The position numbers and the translations under genes were made by a program. Of a DNA stretch of 64,000 nt, positions 3,061 through 37,156 are shown in pieces; position 1 is the stretch's first letter; each line of letters begins with the position of its first letter. The notes beneath the pieces are model-generated. The model saw only the letters and a list, made by a program, of their open reading frames with translations, did no database searches and was not told the origin of the DNA. This stretch comes from Candidatus Eiseniibacteriota bacterium (GTDB taxonomy: Bacteria > Orphanbacterota > Orphanbacteria > Orphanbacterales > Orphanbacteraceae), in the NCBI GenBank assembly GCA_029262235.1, contig JAJCZU010000002.1:558001-622000 (forward strand), written 5' to 3'.

Positions 3061-4407
3061 TTGACAATCACGAACCCGCTCCGTACGGTCCGAAATGTGA
3101 AAGCACTCCTGTCCATATCTGTCTGCCTCGCGTCCGCTCTCCTGTGTTTCGGCTGCCGGTCGCATTCAGGCAACACCTCGAATGCCGCGGCCTCCGAGAT
3201 GCCGGTTGCGGAGGCGCCGGCCCTCTCGATGCTGCTTCCGGCCGTTGCCGGCTCGCTCGAAAGCGGGGAGACGCCGATGGGCTGGTTTCTGCAGCACGGA
3301 ATCGAGCACAACACGGCCGGCGGGATACTCGAGGCGCTCGGTGACCTTCTCCCGATGTCCCGGTTCCGGCCCGACGACGAACTGACGCTCGAATTCGACG
3401 AAGCGGGTGAGGCCATCCGGTTCCGGGTGGATCGCCGCAACCGCTCGCAGTATGTCGTGGAAACGGACGGGAGCGCCTGGAGCGCCCGTGAGCAGGACCC
3501 TGTCTATCGAAAAGGAATCGCGCGGTTCGAAGGGACCGTTCAAAGCTCCCTCTGGGAATCTCTTCTCCGCGAGGGCGCCACACCGGCTCTCGTCATGAAG
3601 TTCGCGGATGTGTTCGCCTGGACGTTCGACTTTCTGACGGACTGCCGCGGCGGGGATCATTTCGAGATTCTCGCGGAGACCCTGTATGAAGGGGACGAGT
3701 TCGTCGGTTTCGGCGATATTCTCGCTGCGGACTACATCGGCGAACGGGGCGAAGTCGATGCCGTGCGCTTTACGCTCGCTTCGGGCAAGGACTCCTATTT
3801 CGCGCGCGACGGAGAATCGCTCCAGAAGATCTTTCTGAAGTCGCCGCTGAACTTCCGACGCATTTCGAGCGGGTTTACTCATGCCCGCTTTCATCCCATC
3901 TTGAAGAAGTACCGTCCTCATCTCGGCATCGATTACGCGGCCGATACCGGAACGCCGGTCGTCGCGATCGGCGACGGAGTCGTGACACGCGCGGGCTGGA
4001 ACGGCGGCTTCGGTAATTTCGTGGAGATCAAACATAGCCGCTCATACATAACCTGGAGCGGACATCTTTCGAAGTACGGCAAGGGAATCAAGAAGGGAAC
4101 GCGGGTCAAACAGGGCCAGATCATCGGATACGTAGGCTCGACAGGGCTCTCGACGGGACCGCATCTCGATTTTCGCATGAAGCACAACGGGAAGTTCGTG
4201 AACCCGCTCAAGATCGCCGTGCCTTCCGCAGACCCCATCCCTGCGGAGGAGCGCACCGATTTCCGGATCGTCTCGCGACAGCTATTCGCGGCGCTCGGCG
4301 CTCTTCCGAACGGACCTCTCGAGGCCGGCTCGGAACAGGTTTGCCAGCTTCTGGCGTCCGCCTGCATGCCGCATGCGACGGCCGGCGGTGACCGGATCGT
4401 CCCCTAG
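3061..4407 (+). CDS. M23-family peptidoglycan metallopeptidase, exported
   Basis: This 448-residue exported protein has a C-terminal LytM/M23 domain and probably cleaves peptidoglycan cross-links in the periplasm. A hydrophobic signal segment at residues about 13-29 ends near a Cys, so it may be a lipoprotein, but the lipobox is imperfect. The middle resembles the substrate-excluding N-terminal domains of MepM/Csd3-type enzymes. The zinc site shows HLGID and GPHLDFR; the second His of the usual HLH motif is Asp here. The TTG start is supported by AGGAG six bases upstream; GTG 3097 is a weaker alternative. apgM and lnt follow closely on the same strand. Confidence 0.88.
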   Translation: MTITNPLRTVRNVKALLSISVCLASALLCFGCRSHSGNTSNAAASEMPVAEAPALSMLLPAVAGSLESGETPMGWFLQHGIEHNTAGGILEALGDLLPMSRFRPDDELTLEFDEAGEAIRFRVDRRNRSQYVVETDGSAWSAREQDPVYRKGIARFEGTVQSSLWESLLREGATPALVMKFADVFAWTFDFLTDCRGGDHFEILAETLYEGDEFVGFGDILAADYIGERGEVDAVRFTLASGKDSYFARDGESLQKIFLKSPLNFRRISSGFTHARFHPILKKYRPHLGIDYAADTGTPVVAIGDGVVTRAGWNGGFGNFVEIKHSRSYITWSGHLSKYGKGIKKGTRVKQGQIIGYVGSTGLSTGPHLDFRMKHNGKFVNPLKIAVPSADPIPAEERTDFRIVSRQLFAALGALPNGPLEAGSEQVCQLLASACMPHATAGGDRIVP

Positions 4408-7273: not shown

Positions 7274-8092
7274 ATCGAACACTCCGTTCGACGCTACCGG
7301 CTTCACATTTCATATGACGGGACACGCTTCGCCGGCTGGCAGCTGCAGCCGGGGCAGCGCACGGTGCAGGGCGAGATCGAGAGGGCTCTCGGGACGCTCT
7401 ACGATACGCCGATCCGGGTGCACGGGTCCGGCCGTACGGACGCGGGTGTGCACGCGACCGGCCAGGTTGCCCATTTCGACGCCAGCGATCGGTTCAGCCT
7501 CCATTGGCTTCGCCGCGCCTTTTTCGGGATGTTTCCGAAGGATATCGCGCCCGCGGGCGTTTGGATTACGGATCCCGCTTTTGACGCGCGACGTACGGCG
7601 GAGCGGCGCTCTTATCGTTACCATATCGTCAGGGACCGCAATCCGCTGTTCAGGCACTACACGTGGGAATACCGCGCCCCTCTCGACGTGGGGCTCATGA
7701 GTGAAGCGACGGAGCATATTGTCGGAGCGCTGGATGCCACTGCTTTCGCGGCCGCGACGCGCAGGGGCAGGAACAATGCGATGACCGTGGAGCGCGCGGT
7801 CTGGACGGACAAGGGTGGGGAACTGATTTTCGAAATCACCGCCAATCGCTTCGTGCACCGTTTCGTAAGAACCGTAGTGGGAACCATGGTCGAAGTAGGA
7901 CGCGGCGCGATGACACCGGACCAGATTCCCGGTATTTTAGACAGCAAAGATCGATCACTCGCAGGACCGACGGCGCCGCCGCAAGGTCTGTTTCTCACCG
8001 AGGTCGAGTACGGGCCCGAGTGGGATGTGCCATGTTCACGGGGAGGCAATGATGAAGTTCTTTATCGACACAGCGAATCTCGACGAGATTAA
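7274..8092 (+). CDS. truA: tRNA pseudouridine synthase A, probable ATC start
   Basis: TruA modifies uridines 38-40 in the tRNA anticodon arm. The catalytic Asp lies in SGRTDAGVH, and the conserved N-terminal [10 protein letters not shown] segment is encoded at about 7313-7342. That segment lies upstream of the first in-frame GTG (7364), so translation must begin earlier. Between the upstream stop (7223) and 7295 the frame has no ATG, GTG, TTG or CTG. The best candidate is ATC 7274, nine bases after a GGAGG core (7260-7264), giving 272 residues, a normal length. A frameshift or sequence error is the alternative. The 3' end overlaps the next gene by 41 bases. Confidence 0.88.
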
Positions 8093-11303: not shown

Positions 11304-13615
11304 TCGAAATCCCGTTGGATATCTCGCTCGCCCTGGGTGAGATCGAAGCGGTCAAAAAGCTTCTCGGCCGCGAACCTTCCGACGTCGAACTGCAGATTTT
11401 CGACGTTCTCTGGAGCGAGCACTGCTCCTACAAATCGAGCAAACCGCTGTTGAAAGAACACCTCCCCGTTACCGGGCCCACCGTCGTGCAGGGCCCCGAG
11501 GAGGACGCCGGCATCCTGTCGTTCACGGAGTGGCAGGGAGTGCATTACGGCGTGGTGATCGGACACGAGTCGCACAACCATCCTTCGCAGATACTGCCGG
11601 TCGAAGGGGCGGCGACCGGAATCGGGGGCGTCGTGCGCGACGTGATCTGCATGGGAGCGGATTTGATCGGGGTCCTCGACCCGCTCCGCTTCGGCGACCC
11701 TTACGGGCCGAACGGAGAGGAGTGTGTGGCCATTGCACGCGGCGTCGTGAGCGGGATCGCGCAATATGGGAACGCACTCGGCGTGCCGAATCTCGGGGGC
11801 GATCTGTTCTTCGACGGCTCGTTCGACAAGAACTGCCTCGTGAACGTGGTCGCGCTCGGGCTTCTCGAATGCGACCGCATTGTAAACAGCGCCGTTCCGA
11901 AAGAAGCGAAGAGCGAACCGTACGTGCTCGTGCTCGTCGGCAAACCTACGGACTCGAGCGGTTTCGGCGGCGCCACGATGGCTTCGAAAGTGTTCGGCGA
12001 AGATCACGAAGAGGGGGAGAACCGCGGCGCGGTACAGATCCCCGACCCGTTCCTGAAACGAGTGCTGAACGTCGCGCTTCGCGAGTTTTACGATCGCATG
12101 GACGCCCGGCGCATTCCGTTCGGGTGCAAGGACCTCGGCGCCGGCGGTATCTCGTGCATGGCGTCTGAAATCGCCGAGCGAGGCGGGTTCGGAATCGAAC
12201 TCGATCTCGACGCGGCCCCGGTGGCCGAAGATCTGCCGGCGCACGTGCTCGCTGTGGCGGAAACACAGGAGCGGTACGGCCTCGCGGTACCCGGGCGATG
12301 GGCCGACGACGTATTGAAGCTCTTCAACGAAGAGTTCGCGCTACCGACGATCTATCGCGGCGCGCGTGCGGCCGTGATCGGTCGTTTCGTGAACGACCCG
12401 GTTGTTCGGATCTCGCACAAGGGGGAACTCGTCTGCGACACGACGGTGGCCGCGATTACCACGGGCGCGGTGGCCGATCGCGTCGAGGGCGTATTCGCGC
12501 CGAAACCGTACGTGCGCACGCTCGATACTCCGTTCGATCCCGCATCGGCGCTTCGCAGCATGCTCGGTTCCGTGAACGGCGCGTCAGCCGAGCCGATTTT
12601 CCGGTCGTACGACACCGAAGTGATGGGGAACGCGGTCGTACGTCCCGGGGAGGCCGACGCCGCCGTGATTCTCCCCGTGCACGGCTGTCCCGTGGGACTC
12701 GCGGTCACGGTGGACGGCAATCCGTGGTACACCGATCTCGAACCGCACAAGGGCGCTGCCCTCGCGGTCATCGAGGCCGCGCGCAATCTCGCTGCTGTCG
12801 GCGCGACGCCGATCGGACTCACGGACTGCCTGAACTACGGAAGCCCCGAAGATCCTGTCGTCTACCATCAGTTCGCGGCGGGCGTGCGTGGCATCGCGGA
12901 AGCCGCATCGCGCATCGGTCTGCGGGACGATCCGAAGTACCCCATCCCGGTCGTTTCAGGCAACGTGTCATTCTATAATCAGTCCGAGAACGGGGGCGCG
13001 GTCAAACCCTCGCCGATCATCGCGATGGTCGGTACGATCGCCGACGCCTCGCATGCAACGACTTTACGCTTGAAGGATCCGGGCAACGCGCTCTATCTCG
13101 TCGGGAACCGGTACGATGATCTGGGCGGGTCGCTCTACGATCGGGTCGTACGCGGGGGAATGGGAGGGAACCCGCCCAAGATCCGCTACGACGAAGAGCG
13201 GGCACTCATTCATTTCGTGAGCAGGTTCGTGGAGGAGGGGCTCGTGCGTTCGGCGCACGACATCAGCCGCGGGGGTGCGCTCATGGCGATGGCCGAGATG
13301 GTGATCGCGGGCGACTCGCACTTCGCGAAGCGCGGACTGCGCGCAGACTTCGCTCCTCTCGGCGAGGAGATCGAGTACGAACGCACGCTGTTCGGTGAAT
13401 CGGGCGGTTTTCTGCTCGAAATCGAGCCGGACGTCGAAGAGCGGTTTCGGGAGCGCGCCCATGAACGGCGCGTGGCTCTCTATCGAGTGGCGGAGGTAAC
13501 CGGCCAGGACGAACTTACGATCGAAGGGCCGGGACTTGCGCCCGTTTCGTGGAGGGGAGAGGAAATGAGGACGATTCATCAATCGGCACTCGCAGAACTC
13601 TTCCCGGGGGTATAG
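11300..13615 (+). CDS. purL: Phosphoribosylformylglycinamidine synthase, small-type PurL subunit
   Basis: PurL is the ATP-using synthetase subunit that converts FGAR to FGAM. At 771 residues it is the small type, slightly longer than Bacillus PurL, so it needs separate PurQ (glutaminase) and PurS subunits. The HCSYKSSK and ESHNHPSQ motifs and paired AIR-synthase-like domains are present. The ATGA overlap with purB and the one-base gap to purQ indicate coupled expression. No ordinary 80-residue PurS gene lies nearby; the gene at 14432 is proposed to fill that role. Confidence 0.96.
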   Translation: MIEIPLDISLALGEIEAVKKLLGREPSDVELQIFDVLWSEHCSYKSSKPLLKEHLPVTGPTVVQGPEEDAGILSFTEWQGVHYGVVIGHESHNHPSQILPVEGAATGIGGVVRDVICMGADLIGVLDPLRFGDPYGPNGEECVAIARGVVSGIAQYGNALGVPNLGGDLFFDGSFDKNCLVNVVALGLLECDRIVNSAVPKEAKSEPYVLVLVGKPTDSSGFGGATMASKVFGEDHEEGENRGAVQIPDPFLKRVLNVALREFYDRMDARRIPFGCKDLGAGGISCMASEIAERGGFGIELDLDAAPVAEDLPAHVLAVAETQERYGLAVPGRWADDVLKLFNEEFALPTIYRGARAAVIGRFVNDPVVRISHKGELVCDTTVAAITTGAVADRVEGVFAPKPYVRTLDTPFDPASALRSMLGSVNGASAEPIFRSYDTEVMGNAVVRPGEADAAVILPVHGCPVGLAVTVDGNPWYTDLEPHKGAALAVIEAARNLAAVGATPIGLTDCLNYGSPEDPVVYHQFAAGVRGIAEAASRIGLRDDPKYPIPVVSGNVSFYNQSENGGAVKPSPIIAMVGTIADASHATTLRLKDPGNALYLVGNRYDDLGGSLYDRVVRGGMGGNPPKIRYDEERALIHFVSRFVEEGLVRSAHDISRGGALMAMAEMVIAGDSHFAKRGLRADFAPLGEEIEYERTLFGESGGFLLEIEPDVEERFRERAHERRVALYRVAEVTGQDELTIEGPGLAPVSWRGEEMRTIHQSALAELFPGV

Positions 13616-33867: not shown

Positions 33868-34590
33868 CTAGCGGAAGAGGCCTTTGACGTCCGACCAGGA
33901 AGCTTCTTCCGTGGCCGTTCCGCCACAATCGAAGAAAGCGACGGCCGCGATGTCTACCGGACCGAGAGCATCCGCAAACGCCTGCGGCGGGCAGTAAGCC
34001 GTGGCACCCGGGTTTCCGTAGAATACGGAGCTACCGAGACCAACGCCAACGCCAGCGCAAGCCGGTCCGCCAACCGCGTTGGACTGATTATTGTCCGTGG
34101 CGATGTACGGAAGGGTACCCTTGTCGAACGTAGCGACAACGGCAACGCAGTTGCTGGTGGCACAACCGAGGCCCGGAACGAAGTTCCAGCGCTCGACCGG
34201 ATCCTGGCCAGCGAGCGAGCCAAGGGATCCACCGACACGGCAGTACGTGTTGCAGTCGACATCATAGAGGTCGTACGACACGGTGAAGCCGTAGCCCGGC
34301 GTCGTGTAACGCCAGTACCAGAAACCACCCGTATGGCAGCACGGAGCGCCCGTGCAGTCAGCGGCGAGATCGTAAACTACGCCAGCTTCATCACCCTGAG
34401 CGAATCCGCTGTAGAGCCAGATCCAGCCGGAGCAGAAGTTGTAATATACGATCGTACAAACGGCGCTACCACCACCCGTGGCCAGCTGAGCCGTTTCCTG
34501 ATCCGCCTGATACGGGCGGCTCGGGACGTCGGCCATGGCTACTGCGGCGATGGCGAGCGAGAGCAAAGAAACTAAAAGCAGCTTCTTCAT
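33868..34590 (-). CDS. Exported cysteine-rich protein of unknown function
   Basis: I do not recognise this 240-residue protein. It has a clear signal peptide (MKKLLLVSLL..., cleavage likely after AMA at about residue 20). The mature part is rich in Gly, Ala, Tyr and Trp and has 12 cysteines, including a PCC pair, so several disulfides are likely. The last stretch reads EASWSDVKGLFR, with no membrane anchor or sorting motif. The gene is single, has a perfect AAGGAGG site ten bases upstream, a structured leader and a strong terminator, which suggests high and controlled expression. It may be a surface or secreted structural protein; that is inference. Confidence 0.8.
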   Translation of the reverse strand: MKKLLLVSLLSLAIAAVAMADVPSRPYQADQETAQLATGGGSAVCTIVYYNFCSGWIWLYSGFAQGDEAGVVYDLAADCTGAPCCHTGGFWYWRYTTPGYGFTVSYDLYDVDCNTYCRVGGSLGSLAGQDPVERWNFVPGLGCATSNCVAVVATFDKGTLPYIATDNNQSNAVGGPACAGVGVGLGSSVFYGNPGATAYCPPQAFADALGPVDIAAVAFFDCGGTATEEASWSDVKGLFR

Positions 34591-34771: not shown

Positions 34772-35126
34772 CAGAAAACGCGTAAGTCCAGTCAGGTTTT
34801 TTGCTTGCCCGGGAGCCCGCACCGGCCGCTTTTAACGCTTCAAGCCGGGAGGGCACTCGTAAAACATTGCATGGCAATCCGTTACAGTACATCCATACGC
34901 GAGCGGGTGAAAACTGGGCGAACCGGATGAAATCGGGCCGGTTTCGCCGCTGGAGCCCCTGCTCCGGGCCCCTCGCGTTCTGGAGAATTCATTCTACCCC
35001 TTATCGGCCTCTCCGGTCAATCAGAAAAGGCTGTAACCCTATGGGGGACAGACAATTGGAAATAGATCAATTTTGAATGGCCCTGCCTGCCGGAGACAAT
35101 TCCGCTAGGGTTTTCTAAATGGCATT

Positions 35127-35134
35127 GGTAGACT
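35127..35134 (+). promoter_or_regulatory. Possible extended -10 for the glycosyltransferase gene
   Basis: TGGTAGACT has the TGn-TAnnnT form seen at other starts in the window and would give a leader of about 20 bases. No good -35 is visible. Confidence 0.3.
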
Positions 35135-35161
35135 GCGGACGCTTTTTTCGAGGAGGAAAGA

Positions 35162-37156
35162 ATCACCCGATCACTTGCCGTTCTGATTGCCGTGCTGGCC
35201 GTGGCGTTCGCGTTGAAGCTCGTACACATCGCCGATATGCGCGAATCGCCGATTTACGCTCACCCTGTAATGGATGCCGGCTATCACGATCAATGGGCGC
35301 GGTCGATCCTGGACGGCACGCCGATCACCGACGGACAGCCCTATTTCCGGGCGCCCCTGTACCCTTACTGGCTGGCGGCCCTTTACAAGGTTTCAGGCGG
35401 CGATCGCACGGTGCCACGCGTTGCTCAGGCGATTCTCGGGATTGCCTCCCTCTTTCTGCTGTATTCGATCGGAAGGCGCCTGTTCGGCGCGACTACGGCG
35501 ATTCTTGCCGTCGTTCTCGGCGTGCTCTACCCGCTCCTGACGTATTTCGAAGGGGAGCTTCTGATCACGTCCGTGGCCTTCTTCCTGAACGTGCTGCTGC
35601 TCTGGGCGCTGCTGCGGGCCGAGCGATCGCGAGGTCCGTGGCCCTGGATTCTGGCCGGGCTCGTTCTCGGGGCCGCGGCGATTGCCCGCCCGAACGTGCT
35701 GCTGTTTTCCCCGCTGCTGGTCCTCTGGGTCGCGCTCGAACGCAGAAGCGTGCGCGCGGCCATCGTACCGGGCATTCTCGCCGCCGCCGCATCGCTGCTC
35801 GTGATTCTTCCGGTTACGATCCGGAACGCGCGGGTCGGGGGCGAAGCCGTCTTCATTTCCTGGCAGGGCGGGATCAATTTCTACCTCGGCAACCACGTGG
35901 GCGCCGACGGATGGAGCGCGACCGCTCCCGGCATTCGAAAAGACTGGTGGGGAGGCTACGAGGACACGCAGATGATCCCGCAGCGCGAGGCGCGTCGTCG
36001 CATGACGTACGGCGAGATTTCGGACTACTGGTTCGCACGCGGTCTCTCGTTCCTGCGCGAGAACCCGGCGGAAGGCGCGGCGCTGCTTGCGAAGAAAACG
36101 TATCTCGTGTTCTCGGCTCAGGAACTTTCCAACAATCTCATTCTGTCGTTCTCCGGGCGTTACTCGCGTGTGTTTCGATCCCTGCCCGTGACCTACGGCA
36201 TGCTCGTTCCGCTCGCGCTGTTCGGTTTCTGGTGCGCGCGGCGCAATCGGACCGCGCGCCTTCTCTCGTTTCACTTCGTGGCCTATGCGCTCACGCTGAT
36301 TCTGTTCTTCGTCTGCTCCCGTTTTCGGATTCCGCTGCTGCCGGCGGTGCTTCTGTTCGCGGGGGAGGGCCTGCGGGTGCTGGCCCGGGGAGTCCGGGAG
36401 AGGCGGGCGGGCGTCCTCGCGGGCGGCGCGTGGGTCGCGGCCCTGTTCGCGGCCGTGAACTTCGACTTCGGAGTCGTGGGCCCGTTGAATCTCGCGTACG
36501 GACTGGAGGGGGAAGGACTTTCGCTTCTGCAGCAGGAGCGCTACGAGGAAGCGGCCGATCGTTTTCGCGAGGCCATCGTAGAGGATCCGAATTCGCGCAA
36601 CGCTCATCACGATCTCGGGATCGCGCTCCGGTCGCTCGGGCGGGGAGAGGAAGCGGCTGCCGCGTTTCGGAAGTCGATTACCCTCGATCGGACGAACGCC
36701 GAGGCGTACAACAACCTGGCGCTCACGCTTTCTTCTCTCGGACGGAACGGAGAAGCGCTTCGCGTGTACGAACAGGGAATTGATGCGGATCCGAGACACC
36801 CGGGGCTCCGGGTCAATCGCGCTCTCCTTCTGCAGAACGAGGGACGCCTCGAAGAGGCCGTGGCGGACTATCGCGCTTTCATCGCGAGCGGCGCAACGGA
36901 CGGACGTGTACACACGAATCTGGGGCTGGCGCTGGCCGGGCTCGGGCTCCATGACGAGGCCGAGCAGGAGCTGCGGCTCGGGCGCGGGCTGGCGCCGGAC
37001 GTACCGAATACCACCCATGCTCTCGCCCGCTTCCTGCTCGATCGAGGGCGGCCAGGGGAGGCTGCTCCGCTGATCGCCGAAGGCGGGAAACGATGGCCGG
37101 AAGACCCGCGCTGGGAAGCGCTGCGGAGTGAAGCGGCATCGGCCGACGATATGTAG
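35162..37156 (+). CDS. PMT/ArnT-like GT-C glycosyltransferase with TPR tail, probable ATC start
   Basis: This 664-residue protein has about 10-12 membrane segments in residues 1-430, then about five TPR repeats to the end. The first external loop has VMDAGYHDQWA, then FRAPLYPYW, typical of dolichyl-phosphate-mannose/ArnT-type enzymes that use lipid-linked sugars. The best start is ATC 35162: GGAGG (35152-35156) lies five bases upstream, and it restores a proper N-terminal anchor (TRSLAVLIAVLAVAFAL). Between the upstream stop (35129) and 35162 there is no ATG, GTG or TTG; the next, GTG 35192, has no ribosome site and would cut into the first membrane helix. Confidence 0.82.
   Translation: MTRSLAVLIAVLAVAFALKLVHIADMRESPIYAHPVMDAGYHDQWARSILDGTPITDGQPYFRAPLYPYWLAALYKVSGGDRTVPRVAQAILGIASLFLLYSIGRRLFGATTAILAVVLGVLYPLLTYFEGELLITSVAFFLNVLLLWALLRAERSRGPWPWILAGLVLGAAAIARPNVLLFSPLLVLWVALERRSVRAAIVPGILAAAASLLVILPVTIRNARVGGEAVFISWQGGINFYLGNHVGADGWSATAPGIRKDWWGGYEDTQMIPQREARRRMTYGEISDYWFARGLSFLRENPAEGAALLAKKTYLVFSAQELSNNLILSFSGRYSRVFRSLPVTYGMLVPLALFGFWCARRNRTARLLSFHFVAYALTLILFFVCSRFRIPLLPAVLLFAGEGLRVLARGVRERRAGVLAGGAWVAALFAAVNFDFGVVGPLNLAYGLEGEGLSLLQQERYEEAADRFREAIVEDPNSRNAHHDLGIALRSLGRGEEAAAAFRKSITLDRTNAEAYNNLALTLSSLGRNGEALRVYEQGIDADPRHPGLRVNRALLLQNEGRLEEAVADYRAFIASGATDGRVHTNLGLALAGLGLHDEAEQELRLGRGLAPDVPNTTHALARFLLDRGRPGEAAPLIAEGGKRWPEDPRWEALRSEAASADDM

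Follow-up and report, generated by a model that had tools for sequence, protein, structure and literature searches.

The window analysed here, a 64,000-nucleotide stretch of contig C2 in the 4.47-Mb genome of an uncultured Eisenbacteria-like bacterium (G000; 95.5% complete), carries a gene for a glycosyltransferase of the GT-C (PMT_2) type that bears TPR repeats at its C-terminus (Table 1). This identity, proposed in the first-pass annotation, was borne out by PF13231, which scored 49.3 bits in the gene product against a curated cut-off of 26.1 (Pfam). The product leads from a first transmembrane helix (TM1) through an acidic loop, DAGYHDQWA, to the TPR C-terminus, and its reading frame closes at TAG 37154-37156. 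Proteins of this PMT_2/TPR type are common, with 26 matching stretches in G000. The upstream neighbour, an ORF at 33868-34590, lies on the minus strand, opposite to the GT-C gene, and translational coupling or reinitiation therefore cannot supply the latter with ribosomes.

Table 1. Features of the glycosyltransferase locus, and the second gene of the window with a Shine-Dalgarno (SD) site before ATC. Positions are those of the window.
Feature	Position	Strand	Basis or remark
truA, second SD-ATC gene in the window	7274..8092	+	GGAGG, 9-nt spacing; ATC shared with G005
Leader block, 31 nt; probable promoter/5' leader	35121..35151	+	Identical in G001; two-genome comparison
In-frame stop TAG, bounding the N-terminus	35129..35131	+	Sequence
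Shine-Dalgarno AGGAGG (core GGAGG 35152-35156)	35151..35156	+	5 nt to ATC; core and spacing kept in G001
GT-C (PMT_2) glycosyltransferase gene, C-terminal TPR repeats	35162..37156	+	664 aa from ATC; PF13231 and TPR families
ATC, proposed start codon	35162..35164	+	SD, spacing, G001 ortholog
First TM helix/signal anchor	35174..35221	+	Hydropathy; lost from GTG 35192
GTG, rival start	35192..35194	+	No SD; GTT in G001 ortholog

The codons that separate TAG 35129 from ATC 35162 are ACT GCG GAC GCT TTT TTC GAG GAG GAA AGA, and no NTG occurs in frame between this stop and GTG 35192. The spacer from the SD to ATC is AAAGA, exactly 5 nt, which is the commonest SD spacing before ATG in G000; neither GTG 35192 nor GTG 35201 is preceded by such a site. 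The first-pass annotation had described GGAGG followed after five bases by ATC 35162, the absence of NTG between the upstream stop and that codon, and a first downstream NTG, GTG 35192, lacking an SD, and each of these readings proved accurate. It had also claimed a signal-anchor beginning at the ATC and shortened by the GTG, which agrees with the 19-residue hydropathy maximum of TM1: 2.61 from ATC, 0.98 from GTG 35192 and 0.55 from GTG 35201. By hydropathy alone, TM1 ahead of the first acidic loop is present only with the ATC start.

Comparisons drew on seven genomes of the family (G000-G006), including G001, of the same genus and recorded as 'Gemmatimonadetes bacterium SS_bin_27', G002, of the same family and recorded as 'Candidatus Eisenbacteria bacterium Dive96_bin2.117' (both paired with their records by sequence matches), and G005, of another genus. 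The G001 ortholog, with 92% amino acid identity to the GT-C product, begins GGAGG-CAGCG-ATC ATC CGT TCA CTT; three of the five spacer bases differ, yet the 5-nt length of the spacer, the core of the SD and the ATC are all kept. In G001 the position of GTG 35192 is GTT and that of GTG 35201 is unchanged. An additional G next to the SD places the upstream sequence in a different frame in each species, and this indel implies that no coding sequence is shared upstream of the SD. Together with the conservation in G001, it indicates that neither an assembly error nor the truncation of a longer ORF accounts for the ATC. Differences between the two species at first, second and third codon positions number 1, 1 and 3 in codons 1-10, 0, 0 and 8 in codons 11-40, and 15, 4 and 61 in codons 41-200. 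Since some 38% of third positions thus differ (61 of 160 codons), the retention of one ATC by drift alone is not improbable, and its conservation serves mainly to exclude sequencing or assembly error.

Upstream of the leader block the intergenic DNA of G000 and G001 differs by many indels, and an identical 31-nt block amid such diverged sequence is what would be expected of a probable promoter or leader. The plus strand of the leader contains no sigma-70 consensus promoter, and the leader folds no better than shuffled sequences, on which ground control of the GT-C gene by a leader hairpin was rejected. Outside the genus, orthologs in G002, G003, G004 and G006 have an apparent ATG start, and the ATC is shared only within the genus, by G001. 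These ATG-start orthologs also carry a full TM1, and the N-terminus up to a conserved DM is of similar extent, at 29 residues in the G003 ortholog and 26 from the ATC in G000.

Whether such starts recur was examined in 2.86 Mb (64%) of G000, where 2271 genes were called by a hexamer model and every in-frame codon near a gene start was scored for an SD of at least five bases. Relative to expectation, ATG was enriched 6.6-fold after such sites, TTG 3.9-fold and GTG 2.4-fold. No bulk excess was seen for ATC among the 2271 genes (85 observed against 97 expected, 0.88-fold), nor for ATC following an SD of at least six bases (24 against 31.5). AUC use is thus confined to a handful of genes. The absence of a genome-wide excess is the outcome that the first-pass annotation had named as refuting its proposal. 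A test in bulk is blind to so few genes, however, and conservation indicates that they exist. In a narrower set of 342 genes, the coding signal sets in at least four codons ahead of the first NTG; any SD able to serve a nearby NTG was excluded from the codon comparison. In this subset ATC was the most over-represented codon after an SD (7 against 3.0; p=0.03, uncorrected for the many codons compared). An SD of at least five bases preceded 7 of 113 in-frame ATC codons and 3 of 222 out of frame (Fisher p=0.019; p=0.041 without infC); with at least six bases the counts were three and zero (p=0.038). The search among otherwise truncated genes that the first-pass annotation had suggested thus yields a modest in-frame excess, small and partly post hoc (7 against 3).

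The seven genes behind this count are the GT-C gene, infC, truA, C2:852127, C4:277455 and two doubtful cases. The infC gene (G000:C6:275315), likewise singled out for inspection in the first-pass annotation, itself starts with GGAGG...ATC AAA in all seven family genomes. The truA gene of the window is probably the other ATC case to which that annotation alluded; it begins GGGGGAGGGACCGACCC ATC GAA CAC TCC GTT CGA in G000 and GGGGAGGACGAGGCA ATC GAA CAC CCC GTT CGA in G005, and in the window's gene the first NTG, lying after a conserved 10-residue motif, comes too late to serve as the start. C2:852127 (minus strand), a TPR membrane-protein gene with a signal peptide-like N-terminus, also has an SD-ATC start, and its G005 ortholog reads AAAGGA-8-ATC CGT. 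Those of G003, G004 and G006 appear to begin with TTG (one) or GTG (two), and that of G002 has no obvious NTG and perhaps uses CTG; weak starts throughout this set suggest selection for low translation. At C4:277455 (minus strand), a promising candidate, AGGAGG-5-ATC stands before the gene of a 236-residue membrane protein, 15 codons pass without an NTG, and no ortholog was found in G001-G006. ATC starts at C4:549958 and C2:809612 were set aside, a downstream NTG being more likely in each. Within the window, an SD-like string before ATC at 13578 (a GATase_5/purQ-like gene) and an ATT at 4259 (an apgM-like phosphoglycerate mutase) were both dismissed as chance matches with a plausible downstream ATG. 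A possible CUG start was also observed at G000:C2:404259 (plus strand), where AGGAGG-6-CTG precedes a 257-residue methyltransferase-like gene whose next NTG is 18 codons on. Judged from these comparisons, AUC starts in this lineage are few but very probably genuine, and some of them are shared across genera.

The initiation machinery appears ordinary in the portion of the genome read. The 16S 3' end, which the first-pass annotation had also marked for inspection, is the canonical CACCTCCTTTCT. The 64% covered contains a single initiator-like tRNA-CAU (GGGCTCATAACCC stem) and a single tRNA-Ile-GAU of ordinary type, and neither an altered anti-SD nor a GAU initiator tRNA was seen in these 2.86 Mb.

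Several other accounts of the locus deserve consideration. Translation might begin at GTG 35192 or GTG 35201 without an SD, the SD-ATC pairing being coincidental. GTG is an accepted start codon, enriched after SDs as noted above, and GTG 35201 persists in G001; yet neither codon has an SD, the first is GTT in G001, and both would remove most of TM1 and leave AGGAGG, with its conserved 5-nt spacing, without use. Third-position divergence, moreover, begins already at the ATC. We regard a downstream start as unlikely. That the true codon is ATG, misread through a sequencing or assembly error, would require the change of one base only, but the independently assembled genome of the congeneric G001 also has ATC, and this account is scarcely credible.

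The ATG starts of other genera in the family would also be compatible with a decaying gene, in which an ATG-to-ATC mutation in the ancestor of the genus lowered or abolished expression. However, the 664-codon frame is intact in both species at 92% identity, third-position bias is strong over codons 41-200, and the SD and its spacing are kept, all of which make decay very improbable. A broader alternative is that start recognition is relaxed across the lineage, through an altered IF3, initiator tRNA or anti-SD, and that AUC is routine. The AUC starts at infC, truA and two further genes would fit, but the lack of bulk enrichment, as well as the ordinary sequence of the CAU initiator tRNA and the 16S tail in the portion read, render it most unlikely. 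The first-pass proposal that AUC is tolerated in this lineage accordingly survives in part: recurrence is upheld, by infC in 7/7 genomes and by truA and the TPR gene in two genera, and general tolerance is not supported, given the 0.88-fold ratio.

We thus favour, with a probability of roughly 0.85, translation of the GT-C gene from AUC 35162 behind a strong SD, presumably with a third-base-mismatched fMet-tRNA and a low, IF3-sensitive output. The start is most likely genuine and rare, of the same kind as those of infC, pcnB and ccpN, and not a sign of a relaxed start-codon code. AGGAGG at its 5-nt spacing would position the 30S subunit on the AUC, where the ordinary fMet-tRNA (anticodon CAU) would pair with A and U and mismatch at the third base. 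The protein would then begin with fMet and not Ile, and the signal-anchor, needed for GT-C topology, would be retained. As a poor initiation codon opposed by IF3, AUC may be expected to give low GT-C output, which would inversely follow the level of IF3, as for infC. By analogy, the gene is presumably held low and tied to the IF3 level. A bolder extension, which we consider improbable, is that the AUC starts form a small IF3-responsive set (infC, truA, the GT-C gene and the TPR gene) linking the level of a translation factor to tRNA modification and envelope glycosylation, with AUC as the lineage's chosen weak start over AUU or AUA.

Non-AUG starts at infC, AUU in E. coli and AUA in S. aureus, are widespread and autoregulatory. 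To our knowledge, there are few documented AUN starts in bacteria beyond infC and a small number of other genes. A literature search on ATC or AUC as a start codon brought up mainly mitochondrial genomes. Near-cognate starts are already known; what sets the present case apart is the use of AUC and its place in an envelope glycosyltransferase gene. Most gene finders take NTG starts only, which makes N-terminal truncation of such genes likely, and gene callers likely cut TM1 from the GT-C protein. Mis-starting AUC genes in this way would remove signal anchors and hide regulation. The AUC starts of four genes, found also in a second genus for three of these and in a second species for the fourth, now provide cases with which to address the question of an IF3-tuned gene set.

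Related systems offer a basis for comparison. In S. aureus, cvfC1 (AUU), ccpN and infC have conserved AUU or AUA starts with extended SDs and lower expression, those of cvfC1 and ccpN having been discovered by ribosome profiling and their reduced output established with reporters (PMC13009471). For the AUU start of E. coli pcnB, PMC13009471 cites Binns & Masters 2002. Non-AUG starts more generally accompany stronger SDs (PMC5622118), and IF3 discriminates against weak third-base pairs in vitro (PMC10158994).

The GT-C gene resembles infC in its near-cognate AUN start, presumably read by a normal initiator tRNA, and in its good SD, and infC of this lineage itself uses AUC in 7/7 genomes; it differs in that its AUC is seen within one genus only and in that it does not encode an initiation factor. 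With ccpN of S. aureus and B. subtilis (AUA) and cvfC1 of S. aureus (AUU) it shares a conserved non-canonical start and a strong SD, but the third base there is A or U and here C, the proteins are unrelated, and those starts were tested experimentally whereas ours is deduced from sequence. Like E. coli pcnB, it encodes an enzyme whose output appears to be held down by a poor start codon, AUU by experiment in that case and AUC by inference in this one. Among the TPR-tailed glycosyltransferases of the PMT_2/GT-C type, with which it has in common PF13231 and the layout of TM1, loop and TPR, the GT-C gene differs only in its start codon.
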